The notes beneath the pieces are model-generated. The model was not told the DNA's origin, did no database searches, and saw only the letters and a program-made list of their open reading frames with translations. Positions 34,561-46,540 of a DNA stretch of 46,540 nucleotides are shown piece by piece. The stretch is from a virus, in the IMG/VR virus record IMGVR_UViG_3300046721_000075, positions 1-46,540 of that record. The stretch is one strand, 5' to 3'. The position numbers were made by a program, and so were the translations under genes. Within the stretch, counting starts at the first letter, position 1. Every line of letters starts with the position of its first letter.

Positions 34561-34593
34561 GACCAGGGGGGTGAACGTAACACCCCCCTGGTC
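34561..34593 (-). terminator. Terminator of the ubiquitin-like cassette
   Basis: GACCAGGGGGGTG (34561-34573) and CACCCCCCTGGTC (34581-34593) form a perfect 13-bp stem with loop of 7. Read leftwards it is followed by CTGTTTGGG. It lies 22 bases after the stop of the beta-grasp gene and closes the cassette. Confidence 0.8.
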
Positions 34594-34614
34594 ACTGTGT
34601 CTAGGAGGCAGGTT

Positions 34615-34839
34615 CTAGTTGGAGCCCGCCTTGATGTCGCCGGTGATGGAGATGAAGTCACCGTTGCGGAGCGGCCTGTTGAACTCGGCCAACAGGATGC
34701 CGTTCACCTTGATGGTGCCCCGCGTGGTCTCGAACCCGGCCCTCTCCACCAGGTCCTCGACCGTCTCTCCGTCCGACAGCGCGAACTCCTGGACGGGGGC
34801 GCCACCGAGCTTGCCGACCTTCACGAACTGGACGTCCAT
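34615..34839 (-). CDS. Ubiquitin-like beta-grasp protein (ThiS/MoaD-like)
   Basis: 74 residues with the ThiS/MoaD/ubiquitin order: strand (VQFVKVG), strand (VQEFALSDG), helix (TVEDLVERAGF), strand (TIKVNGILLAEF), and the ending LRNGDFISITGDIKAGSN, where NGDxIxIxxxIKxG is typical of sulfur-carrier and ubiquitin-like folds. The terminus is AGSN, not GG, so it would need trimming (for example by the JAB enzyme) to expose a glycine, or act without conjugation. GGAAGGAGAG lies 8 bases before the ATG. It is the last gene of the cassette with E1-, JAB- and E2-like genes. Confidence 0.75.
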   Translation of the reverse strand: MDVQFVKVGKLGGAPVQEFALSDGETVEDLVERAGFETTRGTIKVNGILLAEFNRPLRNGDFISITGDIKAGSN

Positions 34840-34881
34840 GTTGCGACTCTCCTTCCGTTCCCTTGGGTGGTTGCTAGCAAC

Positions 34882-35583
34882 TCAGGTCAGGTGAATCCTC
34901 AGGACGAAGTCGAACGTCTCGTCGAACAAGACGTCCTCCCCCGTCGCCAGCTTCTTCACGTTGTCGCAGATGAGGGCAGCGGTGAGCATCGGCGTGTAGA
35001 CGATGCTGCGCTCTGTACAGGGCGCTTCCTCCGCTCCCTCATCATCGAACAGCGTGTCCTCGTACCTCTGCTGCTGCGTGACGTCCTGAACCTCCACGGT
35101 GAAGATTCTCAGGACCCGTGCTCCCATCCTGGCGTCGATGTAGTGGCGAGCCTCCGAGGACTTGACCAACTCCCAGATGGCTTTCCGGGCCTTCATCGAG
35201 TCCACGCCACTCACCACGACCGATGCCGTGATGGGCCTGTTGTGTACGAACGGCCTCACCTCCTCGGTCAACCCCGTGACCATGCACGTACCGGCCAACA
35301 GGTCGACCACTTGGCTGAGGGCTTCCACCTTCAGCATCCCGATGTGAGCCTCCCCATAGAGCTGGTTCGGCTGGTTATGAACCTCGACGGAATCGAAGTC
35401 CATCACCGTCAAGCTGGGAAGGCCCATCTTCGCCAGGCCCAAGCCCGTCCATGAGCCGATGCCTCCGGCTCCTATCAGCAGCACACCACCAAGGGCCTCC
35501 AACTCCTTGGGGTGGCACAGGTGCAACTGACGGGCGAAGATGGCGTCCACCTGCTCATCGGTGGCTCCGACCAGCGTGGTCAT
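34882..35583 (-). CDS. E1-like (ThiF/MoeB) adenylating enzyme
   Basis: 233 residues, a single-domain ThiF/HesA/MoeB protein. ATP-binding GAGGIGS at 38-44, the acidic DFDSVEVHN at 62-70 with NQ in place of the usual RQ, Lys85, DSM (128-130), IDARMG (149-154), and a candidate catalytic Cys189 (APCTERS) followed by TPMLTAALICDNVKKL. It would adenylate and thioesterify the C terminus of the beta-grasp protein. No C-terminal ubiquitin-fold domain or CxxC zinc pair. Coupled to the JAB gene by ATGA. It could in principle serve a ThiS/MoaD-type sulfur transfer, but the JAB and E2-like neighbours argue for conjugation. Confidence 0.86.
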   Translation of the reverse strand: MTTLVGATDEQVDAIFARQLHLCHPKELEALGGVLLIGAGGIGSWTGLGLAKMGLPSLTVMDFDSVEVHNQPNQLYGEAHIGMLKVEALSQVVDLLAGTCMVTGLTEEVRPFVHNRPITASVVVSGVDSMKARKAIWELVKSSEARHYIDARMGARVLRIFTVEVQDVTQQQRYEDTLFDDEGAEEAPCTERSIVYTPMLTAALICDNVKKLATGEDVLFDETFDFVLRIHLT

Positions 35584-36773
35584 ACGCCATCGTCCAGGGC
35601 GACCTCGCTGTCCTGCTGCTCCAGGAACGCCTTGGCTGCCTCCTCAGGGATGAGCAGTTCCACGAACGCCTCCAACGAGGTCACTTCGGCCTTGTTCAGC
35701 CCCAGGAACTCGGTCAGGTACTCGATGTCACCCTCCAACCGCGAGGTCAGTCCTTCGAGGTCGAGGGACCAGCCAGCAAGCTCAGGGTCCTCCATGTCCC
35801 TGCCGACGTCGGCCTTGGTGTCCAGGTCCCTCGCCAGGAGGAGCAGGGCTTCATCGGCGTCCAGCTCGGTTGACGCTGATGCCGTCAGCGGCACGTAGCC
35901 GTACATCTCCGACCAACTCATCTCCCCCATGTCCAGGGGGCTCGAAGCCATCTGATGTTCGGTCGGCTTCGACGTACTGACGACGACGCCACTGGTAGGG
36001 ATGGGGTCCCACCGCCCCTTCTGGGCGTTCCAACGAAAGGGACGGTCTCGCAGGGTGGCCGTGTCCTTCTTGGCGAAGTCCTTGCCTCGGCTCCACTCCT
36101 GCTCCCGCTCGTACCAGCGCCACCACACGCCGTTCTCCCAGCGTTCCATGCCCTCCCGCAGCCCCTTCTCGGACGGCGGCAGGCCGGTCTTGGCGTCCCA
36201 GGCGCCACCGTAATGACCCGGCCCAGTCAGCGTTGGCTGATACGAGTTGAACTTGCACCGCTCGGCGATGAGTTGCCGGACCTCGTCGACGTCACCCTGG
36301 GTGGTTGGGACAAAGAGCACAACGTCCAGTTCCTCGTGCATCCACCAGGGGTCGTAGGTGTTCAGCCAACATTGCATGTCACCGGCGGCGTTCAGCACGA
36401 GCGCCACCATCCAACTCCCACCGACCCAGGTACGGATGGTGTTGTCGTCGGTGGCGGAGAAGAACGCTGGCAGCGTTCCGTGGGAGTGACCCCACAGCTT
36501 GATGTCGGCGACCTCGTCGCCTCGGCCCTCGTTGGACAGGGCCATCATCAGGTTCGTCGTGGCGTTGTCGTCGAAGTCCGAGTGCCCGGCGCTGTTGTCC
36601 TGGTCCACCAGGAACACCTCGCTGAGCAGCATGTCCTCGCCGAACAACTTGACCGTGCCCAGCCACGAGATTTCCTGCAAGCTCCCGTTCACCGACGCAC
36701 GAGCGTTCTTCACGAACAGCCACATCGTCTTCCATGCCTGTGGCGTCACCAACAGCCTGCGGTTGTCGCTCAT
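35580..36773 (-). CDS. JAMM/JAB metallo-isopeptidase
   Basis: 397 residues. The N-terminal MPN/JAB domain (1-165) has the complete JAMM set: E34 (LQEISWLG), H96-S-H98, S106 and D109 (GHSHGTLPAFFSATDD), with spacing H-x-H-x7-S-x2-D. Residues 165-265 are Trp/Gly-rich, unrecognised; 300-397 are acidic and helical and may bind partners. JAB enzymes in prokaryotic ubiquitin-like systems trim or remove the modifier. ATG 36773 has AAGGGGAGG upstream. The stop is coupled to the E1 start. Zinc binding is inferred from the motif. Confidence 0.87.
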   Translation of the reverse strand: MSDNRRLLVTPQAWKTMWLFVKNARASVNGSLQEISWLGTVKLFGEDMLLSEVFLVDQDNSAGHSDFDDNATTNLMMALSNEGRGDEVADIKLWGHSHGTLPAFFSATDDNTIRTWVGGSWMVALVLNAAGDMQCWLNTYDPWWMHEELDVVLFVPTTQGDVDEVRQLIAERCKFNSYQPTLTGPGHYGGAWDAKTGLPPSEKGLREGMERWENGVWWRWYEREQEWSRGKDFAKKDTATLRDRPFRWNAQKGRWDPIPTSGVVVSTSKPTEHQMASSPLDMGEMSWSEMYGYVPLTASASTELDADEALLLLARDLDTKADVGRDMEDPELAGWSLDLEGLTSRLEGDIEYLTEFLGLNKAEVTSLEAFVELLIPEEAAKAFLEQQDSEVALDDGV

Positions 36774-36836
36774 CGTCCTCCCCTTGGGTGGTAGGGTCTA
36801 GCACCTACGTACGTGGACCAGGTCGGTTTCTATCGC

Positions 36837-38387
36837 TCAGTTCGAGGGGGCATCACCGACCAGGATGTTGAAGCCGACGATGAGGCCCTCGTTGACCTCG
36901 AAGGCCGCGTTCGTCGCCAGTTCCAGCAGCATCGACCTGAGCTGACCCCAGCTCTCCCGCTCGTGCGGCGCCGTCTGCATCAGGATGGTGTTGGTGGGGC
37001 CATCGTTGGCAGCGGTGAGCACCTGACAAGGCGGGCAAGGCTCACCCCGATGTAGGTGATTGTCCCGCTGGACCACCAACAGATGCTGCCGGAACTGCTC
37101 CGACATGGCGGCGATGGTCTCGCCGGTCAGCCCGTCACCCAGGTCGGTGTAGTTAGCCCAGTCCTCGTAGCCCTCGTTGCCCAGCAGCCGCATCAGGACA
37201 TGGGACTGGCTGCCCACATATCCAGCGACAGCGTGACGGCACAGGTCCTCCATCATGAACGACTCGGGGCTCTCCTGAGGACCACAGACCGGGCAGTTGT
37301 ACCCACCGTGACTGTCGTTCGTGCAGTACGACCACATGCCGGTGTTCAGCATCCGCTCGTCGCAGAAGGGACAGAAGATGCAGCCACAGTCCCCGGCGTC
37401 CTCGTTCTCCCCGCAAACATCACAGAACGAGCAGGAGCACGCACTCTCCCTGTTCCCACACTGACCACAGCGGTTGCACTCGCACTCGTCCATGACGTAA
37501 CCACAGTCACCACAGGGAGCTGGTGCTAGTGCGTAACTCAGCACCGGGGAGTTCTCAGCGATGCGCCAGGTCGTGTAGTACTGCCCGTAGGCATCCTCCT
37601 CATGCACCTCAGGCAGGTAGTCCAGCACGTAGAAGATGCAGGTGTCCCACGCTCCGTCGCTGAGCATCCTGGCGATGTCACCGTCGATGTTGCCGAAGCA
37701 CGGCAGCCCGTCAGCATCCACATGCGGATGGGTGAAGTCGGAGTGCGGGTAGTCCTCACCACGGATAACCTCAGCCCGAGGCGTCAGCCTGTGGATGGTG
37801 ACCGTCGGCCTGACCAGGGAGAGCTGGATGCAGAACTGGCCGAGCCTGCGGATGGTCCCGTCGTTCAGTAGCTTGGTGGTCATGTAGTTGGTGAACACGT
37901 ACAGCGCAGGGAAGGTCACGCTGTCACGGATGCGGGTTCCATCCGCCCTCCTGAGAGGCTCGACGATGTCGGTCCCATCGATGAAACGACGCAGCATCAC
38001 CGTCTGAACCTCAGGACGACGCAGGATGCTCGCCAAGCGCGGCTCCACGTCCTTGGCAGCAGGACTATCAGCCGCTTCAATCTGCTTCATGCGCTGCTGG
38101 AGCGTGAACATGGTATCTATCTGCGCACGCAGCGCCGAGCGGTACTGCTGAGCCTGAGATTCAGCCCTGCGTACCTGGTCCTTCAGGGAGTCGTAGTCGG
38201 AGTTGCCCACCGCCGTCCATGAATCGACGTTGCCCTCCACCAGGCGCTTGACCTTGTCGTCGTCCATGCTCGGAGCGACGACCTGGGTAGACTGAGGAAA
38301 CGCCTTCAACTCCAGGCGTACCTGGGCCTCCATCAGCGCAGCCTCGTGAAGCTCCGCCATCATGACCGCTGATATATCGAGTACCAC
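36837..38387 (-). CDS. E2-like protein fused to Cys-rich (possible RING-like) region
   Basis: 516 residues. N-terminal helices with a coiled coil (about 65-105), a helical part, then residues 185-265 shaped like a ubiquitin-conjugating fold: PTVTIHRLTP, THPHVDADGLPCFGN with HPH 220-222 and candidate catalytic C230, then two helices. This mirrors HPN...G.icL in E2 enzymes. Residues 292-368 hold about 18 Cys in CxxC and CxC pairs (PCGDCG, CNRCGQCG, FCDVCG, FCPFCDE, NCPVCGP), enough for several zincs and possibly RING-type. A last CPPC is at 451-454. Context supports E2 or E2-E3 activity; the fold call is by eye and needs checking. Confidence 0.6.
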   Translation of the reverse strand: MVLDISAVMMAELHEAALMEAQVRLELKAFPQSTQVVAPSMDDDKVKRLVEGNVDSWTAVGNSDYDSLKDQVRRAESQAQQYRSALRAQIDTMFTLQQRMKQIEAADSPAAKDVEPRLASILRRPEVQTVMLRRFIDGTDIVEPLRRADGTRIRDSVTFPALYVFTNYMTTKLLNDGTIRRLGQFCIQLSLVRPTVTIHRLTPRAEVIRGEDYPHSDFTHPHVDADGLPCFGNIDGDIARMLSDGAWDTCIFYVLDYLPEVHEEDAYGQYYTTWRIAENSPVLSYALAPAPCGDCGYVMDECECNRCGQCGNRESACSCSFCDVCGENEDAGDCGCIFCPFCDERMLNTGMWSYCTNDSHGGYNCPVCGPQESPESFMMEDLCRHAVAGYVGSQSHVLMRLLGNEGYEDWANYTDLGDGLTGETIAAMSEQFRQHLLVVQRDNHLHRGEPCPPCQVLTAANDGPTNTILMQTAPHERESWGQLRSMLLELATNAAFEVNEGLIVGFNILVGDAPSN

Positions 38388-38392
38388 GTTCC

Positions 38393-38569
38393 TTACCTCC
38401 CTTCCTCCGCTCGCTTCATACGGTCCAGGTGGTAGTCCTTCAGCGCGGCCTCCTCATAGATGTCGAAGGTGATTACCCTCCAGCCACAGGTGCAGCGGAG
38501 GTCATACCTGGTAGTAACCGTCGTCTTTATCTCGTGCTTGACCGATTCTCCTGAGCGACGACGCGCCAC
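38393..38569 (-). CDS. Small basic protein with CxC pair, first cassette gene
   Basis: 58 residues from GTG 38569 with an excellent AGGAGGAAGGA site. Basic start (MARRRSGESVKHEIKTT), then LRCTCGWRVITFDIYEEAALKDYHLDRMKRAEE: a single CxC and a helical end. It is short of the ligands for a normal zinc finger. Its stop lies 6 bases before the next start. Unrecognised. Confidence 0.6.
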   Translation of the reverse strand: MARRRSGESVKHEIKTTVTTRYDLRCTCGWRVITFDIYEEAALKDYHLDRMKRAEEGR

Positions 38570-38582
38570 TCCTTCCTCCTTC

Positions 38583-38621
38583 CATTGATAGGGGTTCCGG
38601 TCGGGTCGGTCGCTATCAATG
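38583..38621. promoter_or_regulatory. Operator-like inverted repeat at cassette promoter C
   Basis: CATTGATAG (38583-38591) and CTATCAATG (38613-38621) are perfect 9-bp arms 21 bases apart, one overlapping the -10 of promoter C and the other next to the ribosome site of the 58-residue gene. Transcripts from promoter B would contain both arms as a hairpin; those from C would not. Confidence 0.5.
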
Positions 38622-38647
38622 TGTCCCGATTCCCGATGCCGTGTCGG
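38618..38647 (-). promoter_or_regulatory. Cassette promoter C
   Basis: Minus strand: CCGACA (38647-38642), 18-base spacer with ATCGGGAATCGGGA, CACATT (38623-38618). The spacer and -35 also form GTCCCGA/TCGGGA, an operator-like dyad. Start expected near 38611, giving a leader of about 40 bases to GTG 38569. Confidence 0.55.
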
Positions 38648-38714
38648 GACCCCTGCTTCGTGCGTAGGAGGAAGACGTTCTCCTTACGGAAGCGGTCGGT
38701 TCCGGGTCCCCTTC

Positions 38715-38744
38715 AATGTGCCCGGATTCCGATGCGTCTGTCGG
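38715..38744 (-). promoter_or_regulatory. Cassette promoter B
   Basis: Minus strand: CCGACA (38744-38739), 18-base spacer with ATCGGAATCCGGG, CACATT (38720-38715). A perfect dyad GGATTCCGA-N8-TCGGAATCC covers the -35 and spacer. It is a diverged copy of promoter C at a 97-base distance. Confidence 0.55.
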
Positions 38745-38771
38745 AATCCCTACCTGGGGACCCCAGAAGGG

Positions 38772-39149
38772 CTACGCCCGGCGGTACTCAGCAGCACGTC
38801 GACGTGCCCCTTCGTTGGAACAGGTCGGACACTGTCGAGCAGTACGCCCAAACTGAGAGTGACCTCGTGAGCAGACCAACTTGCGCGACCGACGTAGGTT
38901 CTCGGCATGAGTCACCGGTTCCAGGTGGTCGGGGTTCACGCACCTTGGGAACCGACACCGATGGTCCAGCTCTAGGCCCTCAGGGATAGGACCCACAACC
39001 AGTTCATACGCCGTTCGGTGGGCGCTGTGCATCTCACCCGTATGCCAGAACGACCCGTAACCCAGCGCCTGGTGAGCGCCCAGCCACCACCAACACTCCG
39101 TCTCTGGGTCACGAACGACCTTCACCCAGAAGCGCCGCTGCCAAGTCAC
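38772..39149 (-). CDS. HNH endonuclease
   Basis: 125 residues from GTG 39149 (GTGA overlap). WVKV....ECWWWLGAHQALGYGSFW, AHRTAYEL, and LDHRCRFPRCVNPDHLEPVTHAEN give a full HNH_3-type motif (DH...C....CVNPdHLe.vT..eN). A second Cys/His set (LVCSRGHSQ, RQCPTCS) follows. Such proteins are free-standing homing or packaging-associated endonucleases. It lies before the cassette promoters and may be a recent insertion, but its overlap with the upstream gene argues for long residence. Confidence 0.86.
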   Translation of the reverse strand: MTWQRRFWVKVVRDPETECWWWLGAHQALGYGSFWHTGEMHSAHRTAYELVVGPIPEGLELDHRCRFPRCVNPDHLEPVTHAENLRRSRKLVCSRGHSQFGRTARQCPTCSNEGARRRAAEYRRA

Positions 39150-39532
39150 CGGAGCAGACGCTCCATCTCATCGAGTTGCTTCCTCATCTGCCTGATGGTC
39201 GCCTTCAACTCCTGTTGGCGAGGGGCTTCGGCCAGCGCCTCAACGAAGGTTCGGATGTCATCCCAGTACCAGCAGACCACGGTGCGTCCGTGGTCCTCAC
39301 GCATCGCCACCGCTGGACACCGCACGCTGCCGATGGGCAGCGCCGCCTGTGCCTGGTCCAGCGCCTTGGTCACGAACACCGGCATCCGTGCTGGCCGCTT
39401 GCACTCCCACCCGAACGCCGACCACAGGGAGTCCGGCTCGAAGCTGATGTCGTTACCACCTGCCCCACCTGAGAGCGGGGTGCGCTTGGCCCCAGCCATC
39501 GAGCGGGCGAACTCACGCTCGAAACGAGCCAC
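39146..39532 (-). CDS. PD-(D/E)XK-like nuclease, resolvase type
   Basis: 128 residues from GTG 39532 (GTG 39556 is another choice). RFEREFARSMAGAKRTPLSGGAGGNDI ... GWECKRPARMPVFVTKALDQAQ fits small Holliday-junction-resolvase-like nucleases: an early Glu, RTPLSGG, a DI acidic strand, ECK and a QA helix. A basic coiled-coil tail ends the protein. It would process DNA branches before packaging. It overlaps a 17-residue reading frame and the HNH start. Confidence 0.7.
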   Translation of the reverse strand: MARFEREFARSMAGAKRTPLSGGAGGNDISFEPDSLWSAFGWECKRPARMPVFVTKALDQAQAALPIGSVRCPAVAMREDHGRTVVCWYWDDIRTFVEALAEAPRQQELKATIRQMRKQLDEMERLLR

Positions 39533-39566
39533 CCTTGTTACGAGCGGCGCTGCCACCCCGAGGCAT
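39513..39566 (-). CDS. Microprotein, PRGGS-ARNKGG type, copy 2
   Basis: 17 residues (MPRGGSAARNKGGSFRA) with an ideal AGGAAGGAG site before ATG 39566. It begins just after its paralogue's stop, and overlaps the nuclease start, so it may be a leader peptide. Supported by duplication and ribosome site only. Confidence 0.35.
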   Translation of the reverse strand: MPRGGSAARNKGGSFRA

Positions 39567-39579
39567 CAGGACTCCTTCC

Positions 39580-39630
39580 TCATCTTCCACCGCCCTTGTT
39601 ACGGGCGCCGGAGCCACCCCTAGGTGACAT
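39580..39630 (-). CDS. Microprotein, PRGGS-ARNKGG type, copy 1
   Basis: 16 residues (MSPRGGSGARNKGGGR). Its ATG at 39630 overlaps the end of the 84-residue gene. The peptide is nearly the same as that of the next reading frame, RGG-rich and basic. Too short for any family assignment. Confidence 0.35.
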   Translation of the reverse strand: MSPRGGSGARNKGGGR

Positions 39631-42474: not shown

Positions 42475-45400
42475 TCATCCCATGTAGGTGATACCGGGTG
42501 TCGTCGCAGCAGCCGCAGCCTGCTGACCGGCAGGCGGAGCGATGCCGAGGCGACGCAGGTACTCCAGGATGGCAGCCGAGGACTCGGTCGCCAGGCTCTG
42601 CTGGTACGGCGGCACCGTGTAGTCCAGGGTGGAGATGCCGGTCTGCTTCAGCAGCTTCTCCGGCAAGCTGAACGGGTACTGGGGTACGCCAGGATTCGCA
42701 GGGTCGGTGATGACCGCGCCCGCGTTGGGATACCCCTGAAGCCTGGACTTCAGGATGTCGAGCAGCGAAGACGTGGAGTAGTACTGGCCCCCAGCCACGA
42801 CGTCCTTCGCCGTCTGGTACTGGGGGAACTGACTGAGCAACTCCTCGAAGATGCCCGGCGTGGCGCCACGGCTGAGCTGGGACACGTTGCCCTGGGCGTC
42901 GACCTTGTACTGGTTCTCCGAACCGAAGGGAGAGATGACGTCGGGCGAGGTGAAGTGCTTGGAGAAGTTGGAGTACGCGGTGCGTCCCGTAATCTGCTCC
43001 ATCGCCGTCTTGATGGCGGGGTGCAGCAGGGACATGGGGGTCTGGAACACGGCGTTGAACGGGTTGGGTCCCGTGGTGGACAGGAACTTCGTGGACCCCG
43101 GCGTGTCCGACGGTCCCCACACCACGCCACCACGCAGGAAGTCCGGCAGCGCACCGTAGCCCTGGGTCAGCTCGTTCGACACGTCCGTCAGTTGCTTGCC
43201 GATGTTCGCGGAGACCGGGTGCTCCAAGGGCATGGTCAGCAGCAGCTTGCCGACGTGTCGGTAGAAGCTCCAGAAGGGGAACAGGAAGGGCTTGACGTAG
43301 TTCCTGACCAGCGGAGACATCTTGGAGTAGTCGTTCATCCAGTAGTTCATGCCCGCCTCAGCACGCTTGATGTCCTGAGGACGCAGGCCCTTGGTGAACA
43401 TCTCCTCCAGGTCGTTCTTCGAGGACATGAACGCCTTCAGCACGGAGGTCCCTGAACGCAGGGCGTAGGACTTCTCCGCCTCGGTCAGGAATGAGCCCTG
43501 CCGGTACGCACTCTCGATGGCGGAGTTGAAGTTCTGGACCCAGTTCCCCACGGCAGCCAGGCCCCTGACCGGCTTCGACGCGGCCATACGCTGGGAGATG
43601 TCCTCAATCATGGAGTTGATGCCAGCGTCCCCGGACTGGATGCGGTACTGCTCGCCGGTCTCGTGGAAGAACCCCTGGTTGACGTTCGGTGTGAACACCT
43701 CGGTCCCTGCCTCGTGCAGGTCCTCAACCATCTTCTTGAACCGGGGCGTTGCCGCCCTGATGGTGTTCGCCAGCCCGACGGGACCAGCCTGAAGGGCGGT
43801 GAACACGGTGTTGCCGACCACGTTGTTGACAATCCAGCGCGGGGACAGCGACAGCACCGCCGAGCGCCACACGTTCGACGGCTTCGTCCAGAACAGCCGG
43901 ACACCGCGACCCACCAGGAAGTCCCGCTGCACCATCTTGTTGAGCTGGGACCCCACGACCTTCGGGATGGCGTAGAGCCTCGCCCCCTTGGTGGTGGCGC
44001 TGAGCATCTCCTTCACATGCCCCTCGGCGTAGGGCATGACGACGTCAAGCGCCTCCTTCAGGGCTTCGTCGGTCTCGGCCAGGCCGGATAGGGAGTGGTC
44101 CAGGAAGTCCGTCAGGTGAATCTGCTGGTTGAAGAACCGGAGCATGTTCTGAGGTGACCACAGCATCTCCGAGGCGCGGGAGAAGTCCGACACCTTCTTG
44201 CCGTCCTCATCGAACAGGGGCCGACCGTAGGTCTCGGTGATTTCCTTCGCCATGTCCCATGCCTCAGCCATCCGTAGGGCCTGGGAAGCGCGGCGAGCGA
44301 ACACCTGGGTCGGGTCCACCACGTACTGGCCGTTCGACAGCAGGTAACCCTTGACGGGCTTCAGGTACTTGCCCGCTGAACGGGTCACCATGTTGCCGCC
44401 CTTCGGCAGGGCGAAGTCCGACGGCTTGATGTCGTAGATGCGCTGGAACGGGAAGTAGATAGGGGTGCGCTGCATCGTGGCCTGACGCTGGTTGTGCAGC
44501 ATCATCTCGTCGGTCCCACCCACGAAGTCCCGCACCAAGGCGCCCTCGGCGTCCCTCTCGACCCACTTCGCTCCGCTCGCCATCTTCAGGGGCAGGTACT
44601 GGCGGCGGAACAGAGTGACCATACCGTTGTCGTACTTCTTGTAGGTCCTCTCCCAGAGCTGGTTGGTGATGCGCTCCAACGTCAGCAGGCGCAGCCCTTC
44701 GACGTACTTCTCCGTCGGCGTCATCATCTCGCCGTCGATGCTCTCCCTGAGCTGATGCACCACGGGCTCGAACACCGACCGGACCCACGCCGTCTCCTCA
44801 GGCAGGTTCTTCGACAGCGCCGCGTACAGCTCACCCTGCTCTACCGTCAGCTCCTTGCCCTGGGCCAGGTCGTTCCTGAACCTCTGGAGCTGGCCCTGGT
44901 GGTCGCTCAACTGCTGGGCGTAAGGCGCCGCAGCACGGGCAGCGCGGTAGGAGTCGGGCGTGTGGATACGGAACTGGACGATGTGGCCTTCCGGGGTGCG
45001 AACGTCGATGTGGAACCCCCGGTAGCCAGCATTGTTCGTCCGACCCAGGTAGTCATGCACGTCGACGACGTCACCGAGCTGACGCAGCATGTCGGCCACG
45101 TTCGGAATCTGCTTGAAGTCTCCGATGCGTACATCGGTGACGGCGTGAGCCTGAGGCTGGTCGTCCCAGATGTCCCTCGCCACACGCTTGCCTTCGGAGT
45201 CGACCCCTATCTCGGTCCACCCCGTCGCCGGGTTGCCCTTCCTGCGAGCGACGGAGGGCGTGAGCTTGCTGGACATGGGCTCGAACATGGCCCGGACCTT
45301 GTCACGCAGACCGTTGAGCGACCCCGGTGTCGCAGCCTGGAAGACCGTCGTGGGGTCGATGCTCCCCGTCTTCGCAACCTGGGGCACCGCGAACCCACGG

Positions 45401-46540
45401 CCTGCGAGCTGCTGCTCGTAGGGAACGTGCAGGTTCGACGGGTCAGGCTCAGGCGGCACGTCCGAGGAGTGCCCACGGTCATAGATGTCGTTCAGCATCG
45501 TCGGCGTATCGGTCGGCAACGGCTTCTCCCTAGCCGGATACGTCGACAGCAGGTCGGCACGCTCGGAGGGCTTCAGCTTGCGGAGCTGCCCCATCTCGTT
45601 GGAGTCCTTCGTCAGCCCCTGACCCAGGGTGATGCGAGCAGCAGCGTGCCTCGCTTCCTCCATCGAGTTGAACCCGGCTGCCCACACCTTCTCGTTGATG
45701 GTGGGCTGCGCGTCCACGTTGAAGATGCGGTCGAACACCTGCTTGACATCGGCCCGCAGCGGCTCCTGGGCGTAGGAACGCAGGCGGTTCCAGATGCGCC
45801 GCATCGTGTCCTTGATGATGTTGAACGGCGTGTGCAGAGCCGGGTTGTCGGGCATATGCCCATCCACCAGGTACTTCACGAAGTCATCGGCGAACTGCTC
45901 GTGCATCTGGCTCGTCCAGATAGGAGCGGCTCCCGCTCTCGGCGCGTTGAACCTGACCGCTTCCTCGCCCCCGTACGCACGGACCATCTGGGTGCGTAGC
46001 TCCTCAGGCAGGAACCCCGCGATGACATGACCCCACTCATGCAGAGCGGTGTGCAGGTCGGCAGCCTCATAGCCGAACGACTTGGGGAACAGGCTGACCA
46101 TGACCTTCTCCCCACGCAAGGCAGGGACCACGCCCGTCGAGTAACCCGTCCCCTTCGAGGTCTTGCGGGCGGTCAAGCCCTTCATGCCCTTCGCTGTCTC
46201 CAACGCCGTCGGCTCGGAGAGACCCCTCGTGGATGCAATCTGGTCCTGGTAGAACCCCCGGTCTCCCATCTGGTGATGCACGGCCTGGTAGAAGCTCGCC
46301 ACGTCGGGATACAGGTCGGGAGCCATCCGCACCGCCGACTCAGCCACCTTGTCGTAGACGGCGAGGGCGGCGAAGGCGTCAGCAGGGGTGATGTCGGTCC
46401 AGTGGAAGTTCCCCGACTCCCTCTGACCCCATCGAGTGATGCCCGTGGCGTCGAGGAACTCCTGCTGAGCCACCGCCCTGGGGTACTCAGGAAGCTGGGG
46501 GTAGTCCTTCGCCACGTAGTAGGGGATGGGCTCCTTCGCC
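42475..46540 (-). CDS. Giant polyvalent virion protein, C-terminal part (open at right edge)
   Basis: 1354 residues visible. Counting from GTG 46515, a zincin metallopeptidase domain lies at about 130-220 (LHTALHEWGH with H159, E160, H163, and HEQFADDF giving a third ligand). A RelA/SpoT-like nucleotidyltransferase domain lies at about 450-525 (DVRIGDFKQI, GYRGFHIDV, IVQFRIHT); the usual Glu of the VEIQIRT motif is Gln here. Helical regions follow, then a hydrophobic stretch (about 885-920, PRWIVNNVVGNTVF) and NYVKPFLFPFWSFYRHV (1073-1089). Frame is open at the edge without a clear start, so it almost certainly continues. Joined to the 1-5290 part it gives about 3117 residues. Confidence 0.85.
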   Translation of the reverse strand, partial: AKEPIPYYVAKDYPQLPEYPRAVAQQEFLDATGITRWGQRESGNFHWTDITPADAFAALAVYDKVAESAVRMAPDLYPDVASFYQAVHHQMGDRGFYQDQIASTRGLSEPTALETAKGMKGLTARKTSKGTGYSTGVVPALRGEKVMVSLFPKSFGYEAADLHTALHEWGHVIAGFLPEELRTQMVRAYGGEEAVRFNAPRAGAAPIWTSQMHEQFADDFVKYLVDGHMPDNPALHTPFNIIKDTMRRIWNRLRSYAQEPLRADVKQVFDRIFNVDAQPTINEKVWAAGFNSMEEARHAAARITLGQGLTKDSNEMGQLRKLKPSERADLLSTYPAREKPLPTDTPTMLNDIYDRGHSSDVPPEPDPSNLHVPYEQQLAGRGFAVPQVAKTGSIDPTTVFQAATPGSLNGLRDKVRAMFEPMSSKLTPSVARRKGNPATGWTEIGVDSEGKRVARDIWDDQPQAHAVTDVRIGDFKQIPNVADMLRQLGDVVDVHDYLGRTNNAGYRGFHIDVRTPEGHIVQFRIHTPDSYRAARAAAPYAQQLSDHQGQLQRFRNDLAQGKELTVEQGELYAALSKNLPEETAWVRSVFEPVVHQLRESIDGEMMTPTEKYVEGLRLLTLERITNQLWERTYKKYDNGMVTLFRRQYLPLKMASGAKWVERDAEGALVRDFVGGTDEMMLHNQRQATMQRTPIYFPFQRIYDIKPSDFALPKGGNMVTRSAGKYLKPVKGYLLSNGQYVVDPTQVFARRASQALRMAEAWDMAKEITETYGRPLFDEDGKKVSDFSRASEMLWSPQNMLRFFNQQIHLTDFLDHSLSGLAETDEALKEALDVVMPYAEGHVKEMLSATTKGARLYAIPKVVGSQLNKMVQRDFLVGRGVRLFWTKPSNVWRSAVLSLSPRWIVNNVVGNTVFTALQAGPVGLANTIRAATPRFKKMVEDLHEAGTEVFTPNVNQGFFHETGEQYRIQSGDAGINSMIEDISQRMAASKPVRGLAAVGNWVQNFNSAIESAYRQGSFLTEAEKSYALRSGTSVLKAFMSSKNDLEEMFTKGLRPQDIKRAEAGMNYWMNDYSKMSPLVRNYVKPFLFPFWSFYRHVGKLLLTMPLEHPVSANIGKQLTDVSNELTQGYGALPDFLRGGVVWGPSDTPGSTKFLSTTGPNPFNAVFQTPMSLLHPAIKTAMEQITGRTAYSNFSKHFTSPDVISPFGSENQYKVDAQGNVSQLSRGATPGIFEELLSQFPQYQTAKDVVAGGQYYSTSSLLDILKSRLQGYPNAGAVITDPANPGVPQYPFSLPEKLLKQTGISTLDYTVPPYQQSLATESSAAILEYLRRLGIAPPAGQQAAAAATTPGITYMG

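Follow-up and report, generated by a model that had tools for sequence, protein, structure and literature searches.

The stretch of DNA analysed here (the window) comprises the whole of the IMG/VR virus record IMGVR_UViG_3300046721_000075 and is 46,540 bases long. On its minus strand lie four intact, closely packed genes for an E2-like protein, a JAB/JAMM metallopeptidase, a minimal E1-like enzyme and a beta-grasp ubiquitin-like modifier (Table 1). A sequence-only reading of this locus had proposed a phage-borne unit in which modifier, E1, E2 and JAB occur together, and such a unit is indeed present, with the doubtful member, the E2, passing both the fold and the profile tests at the family level. 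The E2 and JAB genes are 63 nt apart, the JAB and E1 genes overlap by 4 nt (ATGA), the E1 and modifier genes are separated by 42 nt, and a Shine-Dalgarno-like sequence precedes the E2, JAB and modifier genes.

Relatives were gathered by E1 alone, giving 170 loci labelled with L-numbers; some of these are near-identical, redundancy being uncorrected, and some contigs are truncated. The leave-one-out profiles in Table 1 were built from relatives with the window proteins excluded. When 100 shuffles of each cassette protein and 369 other open reading frames (ORFs) of the window were run against the four profiles, the best E value was 1.6.

Table 1. The cassette genes and flanking features, with positions in the window
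Feature	Position	Strand	Size and evidence
E2-like protein	36837..38387	-	516 aa; leave-one-out family profile 1.6e-19
JAB/JAMM metallopeptidase	35580..36773	-	397 aa; Pfam Prok-JAB 1.1e-5; leave-one-out 1.2e-28
Minimal E1-like (ThiF-fold) enzyme	34882..35583	-	233 aa; Pfam ThiF 1.1e-19; leave-one-out 5e-67
Beta-grasp ubiquitin-like modifier	34615..34839	-	74 aa; leave-one-out 6.5e-15
58-aa ORF	38393..38569	-	5 nt upstream of E2; Pfam: no match
Repeated upstream element with CACATTGANRGNGACC, two copies	38605..38760	-	Candidate control region
13-bp perfect hairpin 3' of modifier gene	34562..34594	-	Candidate transcript end

The four proteins

The E1-like enzyme consists of a single adenylation domain in which the ATP-site residues are conserved and C189 is invariant among relatives. 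Against the PDB, the E1 profile matched UBA5 best (4e-16), with the MccB and PaaA structures also matching at about 1e-14, and the PADLOC E1-E2 models matched the adenylation domain of the window E1 at 2.7e-15. The full JAMM motif claimed for the JAB was confirmed as H96-S-H98-x7-S106-x2-D109. Its catalytic Glu, E34, lies within EISWLG, which aligns with EVGWLG/EVSGLG of relatives. The window JAB therefore carries the whole JAMM/MPN+ signature E...HxHx7Sx2D, which is present in 150 of the 158 JABs of the collected loci. The top PDB matches of the JAB family profile were JAMM1 and CSN5, and the JAB and modifier profiles both found their best matches in a single archaeal entry, 5lda, whose two chains are JAMM1 and SAMP2.

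By itself the window modifier is weak in Pfam (ThiS, 0.006); its beta-grasp assignment, already made from the letters, is upheld by the profile built without it. The modifier family profile found archaeal SAMP2 at 1.1e-6, and MoaD-type chains matched too. The window modifier is a single domain ending in IKAG|SN, with the mature end predicted at G72 (IKAG) and a two-residue tail, SN. Among 68 modifiers detected beside cassettes, 66 have a Gly within the last six residues (28% of background ORFs), and 42 end in [KR][GASN][GNAE]x0-3, as against 4% of background ORFs. Most carry residues beyond the glycine, mostly a short tail, and from the sequences the cut points would be, for example, VKGG|R, LKG|AR, MKAG|LVA and IKAG|SN. 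The crAss-like group has a beta-grasp-like N-terminal protein in which the Gly of [KR][SA]G (KVKSG or KIRSG) is invariant and is followed by a tail of anything from one residue (L053) to a whole domain. A PDB search with this crAss-type modifier profile found no beta-grasp chain, and its link to the window type by profile-profile comparison was weaker (68%, 4.9e-5) than that of the E2s described below. Tandem, polyubiquitin-like modifiers occur in L008 (7882-8292, two domains), L116 (8118-8591, two) and L158 (2264-2896, three). Tails and tandems of this kind call for a protease, and the JAB gene adjoins.

The E2-like protein has an N-terminal helical or coiled-coil region (about residues 1-160), a UBC core (about 160-290) and a Cys-rich, zinc-type tail with cysteines between 292 and 383. 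As the sequence-only reading had noted, its core contains an E2-like HPH...C arrangement, HPHVDADGLPCFGN, with C230 present and preceded by H220-P-H. The family motif is HP[HN][IV]xxxGxxC[FWL]G, of which the H, P, C and G are invariant or nearly so in 38 diverse cores; the canonical HPN is found in the E2s of L126 and L131. On its own the window E2 has no useful Pfam match, and only one of 38 single members reached UQ_con, at 0.006. This near-invisibility of single E2s to Pfam may be the reason that the family lacks a name. A small early E2 profile weakly favoured UBE2N. The larger family profile A9 matched human UBE2L3 in the PDB at 5.2e-5, in an alignment that starts at the first helix and runs as far as the active Cys, and nearly all of the matches listed were eukaryotic E2s. 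The fold was modelled for the core of the L089 protein, that locus being a close relative by E1, and the window E2 is tied to the family by its 1.6e-19 profile match. The AlphaFold2 model had a confidence (pLDDT) of 91.5 and a predicted template modelling score (pTM) of 0.85, and in Foldseek its 13 best PDB matches were all UbcH7/UbcH8, with E values from 2.4e-3 and TM scores of about 0.5. At the family level, then, the predicted structure places the E2-like protein in the UBC fold, and not in some other fold, which the sequence-only reading had counted among the outcomes that would refute it.

The E2 motif follows the E1 tree, in which a strongly supported branch parts a crAss/Bacteroidetes-phage side, with HSH...C, from the window's side, with HP-x...C. 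A crAss-type E2 profile alone did not recover the window E2 (E = 11). Profile-profile comparison of the two types gave a probability of 91% (9.4e-7), and it is on this comparison, together with gene order, that their linking rests. A Cys-rich stretch follows the core in 13 of 41 HP-type E2s, the window included; by its sequence it looks like zinc modules and may act as an E3. The E2 usually diverges faster than the E1 between related phages, as in L075/L080 where the non-synonymous divergence (dN) is 0.46 against 0.03, which fits a part that chooses targets without proving it.

Relatives, gene order and surroundings

With the window E1 as query, phage records yielded 47 relatives, and profile scans added 163 further loci. 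Carriers in the phage-record search included Flavobacterium Fpv phages, Xanthomonas/Erwinia jumbo phages and crAss-like phages, and in annotated relatives the cassette genes are labelled thiamine biosynthesis or hypothetical. Since E1 was the sole bait, the neighbouring genes count as independent evidence: a JAB is present in 158 of the 170 loci, E2 and JAB both accompany E1 in 129, and an adjacent modifier with a near-terminal glycine occurs in at least 66. The three-enzyme loci have the order E2-JAB-E1 in 123 of 129 cases and are packed in 111, usually overlapping, with median gaps along E2-JAB-E1 of -53 and -4 nt. The neighbourhood search in related phages suggested by the sequence-only reading bore it out on the association of JAB, E1 and modifier. 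It had, however, underestimated how common such a unit is, as the cassette forms a large phage family and is no single oddity.

The ratio dN/dS in relatives was mostly 0.04-0.5, the near-identical pair L039/L040 being the one case not below 1, so that the sequences show the relatives to be under purifying selection. Cassette neighbours in annotated relatives are replication or early genes (primase, uracil-DNA glycosylase, exonuclease, topoisomerase), to which RusA and HNH genes are the counterparts in the window. Single-sequence scans of IMG/VR found no close relatives of the window E2, E1 or JAB, nor did a DNA-level search of phage records find any, and at 1e-3 there were no E1 relatives in 72,556 plasmids.

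The set also occurs in complete phages, namely the crAss-like gut phages L004 (2737-6612), L005 and L007 and the cultured Flavobacterium phage Fpv3 (L002), and these phages offer practical bench models. E1-family loci were also found in bacterial assemblies. Cellular genes flank L098 (GAPDH, PfkB), L101 (EngA, histidine kinase) and L089 (RNase E/G), and the family therefore extends beyond viruses. Chromosomal-looking cassettes occur in Saccharibacteria (L097-L102, L093 and L094; for example L101, 4103-7684), where the modifiers mostly end in NG. In the Methylomirabilota loci L088 (449-1891) and L089 (5718-7907) an E2 and an E1 are accompanied by a modifier whose last two residues are GG, and no JAB was detected there. 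A GG-ending modifier was considered as the reason for the loss of the JAB and was dropped, since L104 ends in GG yet has a JAB. At L034 (3868-4722) a separate Cys-rich, RING-like-looking gene with no Pfam match lies between modifier and E2, possibly a stand-alone E3 or adaptor. The jumbo-phage loci L003 (3214-5892) and L050 (2981-6928) have proteins of 892 and 1315 aa in the E2 position beside E1, with no JAB found nearby.

Tandem promoter elements, a terminator and hence a control region of its own had also been claimed for the cassette, and these claims stand in part. The upstream element is repeated at this spot only, as the only exact copies of CACATTGANRGNGACC in the window are those at 38608-38623 and 38705-38720, but no sigma-70-like promoter consensus was found at the element. 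The hairpin is a perfect one, with an RNA fold of -38.1 kcal/mol over a 70-nt stretch (z = -4.5), but it is not followed by a T run and does not match the terminator consensus. The 58-aa ORF probably shares a transcript with the E2 gene.

Neighbours of the cassette with family matches are HNH, RusA and helix-turn-helix genes; the HNH endonuclease gene (HNH_3, 2.4e-14; 38772-39149) lies directly upstream of the repeated element. Elsewhere the window encodes terminase, portal, tail proteins and an amidase-type endolysin. The portal is only about 22-26% identical to its nearest known portals, several of them from podoviruses, and the window phage is therefore far from cultured relatives. Two 35-nt direct repeats, 83% identical, lie inside short ORFs at 39529-39624 and translate on the minus strand as RGGSAARNKGG and RGGSGARNKGG. 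A 1346-aa protein is encoded at 42475-46515, for which Pfam gave no match and PHROG a single one.

Comparison with known systems

Bil, a bacterial system of defence against phages, comprises four activities: a modifier, an E2, a JAB that matures the modifier and an E1 (PMC11354881). The window likewise holds all four in one operon, and relatives with an upstream modifier (L017, L019, L034) have the order modifier-E2-JAB-E1, equal to BilA-B-C-D. BilA has two ubiquitin domains, BilB a CEHH motif, and BilD an inactive and an active adenylation domain together with a Cys domain (PMC11354881). In contrast to the tandem domains of BilA, the window modifier is a single domain; the CEHH arrangement (C, E +6, H +8, H +13) is replaced in the window E2 by HPH before C230, with no E/H/H after C230; and the window E1 has one adenylation domain in only 233 aa. 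No PADLOC Bil model matched the window JAB, E2 or modifier, and none was among the 25 matches listed for the E1. By its defining features, therefore, the cassette works like Bil without belonging to it.

Operon type 6d of Iyer, Burroughs and Aravind (2006) has a stand-alone modifier with a C-terminal Gly and separate E1, E2 and JAB proteins (PMC1779556). The window shares the stand-alone modifier, with its Gly near-terminal, and the separate enzymes, but the type 6d E2 has no upstream His and has a downstream one, whereas H220-P-H precedes C230 in the window E2, as its counterpart does in relatives. Type 6d is presumably the PRTRC plasmid system. NCBIfam PRTRC models scored far below their cut-offs (ThiF 37.0 of 144.75 bits, A 15.8 of 101.8), and the plasmid or integrative and conjugative element (ICE) setting of PRTRC does not apply, the window being a virus record whose E1 has no plasmid match; the accessory helical protein was not searched for. 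Type II CBASS (Cap2/Cap3) and the 6a/6b operons have E1, E2 and JAB chemistry in common with the window, but there E1 and E2 are fused, whereas the window cassette has separate genes and a dedicated modifier. Such operons also include a CD-NTase, in respect of which the neighbours of the window cassette were covered by the family matches given above (HNH, RusA and helix-turn-helix). The archaeal SAMP/JAMM1 system resembles the cassette in both modifier and JAB, as the 5lda matches indicate; SAMP conjugation needs no E2 (PMC11354881), whereas the window cassette encodes one. The phage tail assembly proteins TAPI/TAPK (lambda I/K) pair a beta-grasp protein with a JAB (PMC1779556), but lack E1 and E2 and have the JAB joined to NlpC/P60. 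With the eukaryotic E2s UBE2L3 and UBE2N the family shares the UBC fold, the HP-x motif, the active Cys and a downstream helix, just as its E1 profile is nearest UBA5; the eukaryotic HPN is HPH in the window, which adds the N-terminal helical region and the Cys-rich tail in the same chain. By defining features, then, the cassette is not Bil, PRTRC, CBASS or ThiS/ThiF, the last being considered below. The open-licence literature on crAss-like phages with ThiF/ubiquitin and on phage E1/E2/JAB sets contained no description of it, and an earlier mention may exist outside that literature.

Proposed pathway, alternatives and significance

With four recognised families, a family-level UBC fold, intact catalytic residues, tight linkage in phages and a conserved modifier glycine followed by tails, we consider it likely that the cassette equips the phage with its own complete and reversible pathway of ubiquitin-like conjugation. 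We infer the chemical steps, the order of transfer and the targets as follows. The JAB would trim the precursor modifier after its conserved glycine (IKAG|SN in the window), and the E1 would use ATP to adenylate this glycine and then hold the modifier as a thioester on C189. From there the modifier would move to C230 of the E2, which would join it to target proteins, its N-terminal helical and C-terminal Cys-rich regions probably standing in for a separate E3. The JAB would later take the tag off the targets.

Several points weigh against this pathway. The case for conjugation rests on sequence and predicted fold. The AlphaFold2 model of the full-length window E2 was poor (pLDDT 43.8, core about 70), and Foldseek with that model gave no useful match; the fold of the window E2 therefore rests on family membership. 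The correlation of 0.82-0.85 between the distances of E1, JAB and E2, which counts in favour of the pathway, may only mirror shared phage ancestry. E1-type chemistry alone also serves sulphur transfer and peptide modification. The E1 might make a thiocarboxylate on a ThiS/MoaD-like carrier in a sulphur relay for cofactor, tRNA or DNA modification, as the single best database names, ThiS and ThiF, and the matches of the modifier profile to SAMP2 and MoaD-type chains would suggest. We regard this as improbable, since in most relatives the E1 has as its neighbours a JAB and a UBC-fold E2 whose Cys is conserved, and residues follow the glycine in most modifiers. Furthermore, ThiF and MoeB carry zinc CxxC pairs, whereas the window E1 has none and scores far below the equivalog cut-offs of the two models (63 bits against 159 and 47 against 266). 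Sulphur transfer had been named beforehand as a refuting outcome; of the genes checked, none was recognised as encoding a rhodanese, a desulphurase or a thiamine/molybdopterin function. That the E2-like protein is no conjugating enzyme and the E1 acts on a peptide or small molecule, like MccB or the ThiF-like enzymes of ribosomally synthesised peptides (RiPPs), is quite improbable. The E1 profile does match MccB and PaaA, but the near-invariant H, P and C of the 38 E2 cores and the predicted UBC fold of the family argue for conjugation, as does a modifier that is a folded beta-grasp protein and no short peptide.

It is scarcely credible that ThiF, JAB and small ORFs came together by chance or are in decay, with no function in common. 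That reading would account for a modifier and an E2 that are almost invisible to single-sequence searches, but not for four intact ORFs with their catalytic residues kept, nor for an identical gene set and packing in scores of diverse phages; relatives are under purifying selection, and frequent stops or lost active sites were not seen in close relatives. If the chemistry is that of conjugation, its purpose could still be to fend off competing phages, as a defence that the phage carries and that parallels bacterial Bil. The four activities shared with BilABCD (PMC11354881), the identical gene order in L017, L019 and L034 and an E2 that outpaces the E1 in divergence are in keeping with such a role, which we nonetheless think unlikely, as the PADLOC Bil models do not match the window JAB, E2 or modifier, and annotated relatives have replication genes and not defence genes as neighbours. 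Within the conjugation pathway proposed here, our preferred reading, though a guess at about even odds, is that the cassette acts early in infection on host or phage proteins, for takeover or counter-defence, and not on the virion; this early role is inferred from the neighbouring genes.

Known bacterial ubiquitin-like systems are mostly anti-phage or plasmid-carried; here phages themselves carry the full set. On balance we favour the view that a viral ubiquitin-like pathway, forming a class of its own, is common to tailed phages as different as jumbo phages, crAss-like phages of the gut and the window's uncultivated podovirus-like phage. It would combine sometimes polyubiquitin-like modifiers, a minimal E1 and all-in-one E2s (often with a RING-like zinc region in one branch), and would tag host or viral proteins during infection. 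If so, phages would mark or stabilise proteins inside cells as eukaryotes do, and crAss-like gut phages would do this with genes labelled "hypothetical" or "thiamine biosynthesis". The cassette is a compact, testable system whose E2s are recognisably akin to those of eukaryotes, and since the family also occurs in chromosomal-looking loci of Saccharibacteria and Methylomirabilota, it bears on the origin of E1-E2-JAB pathways.

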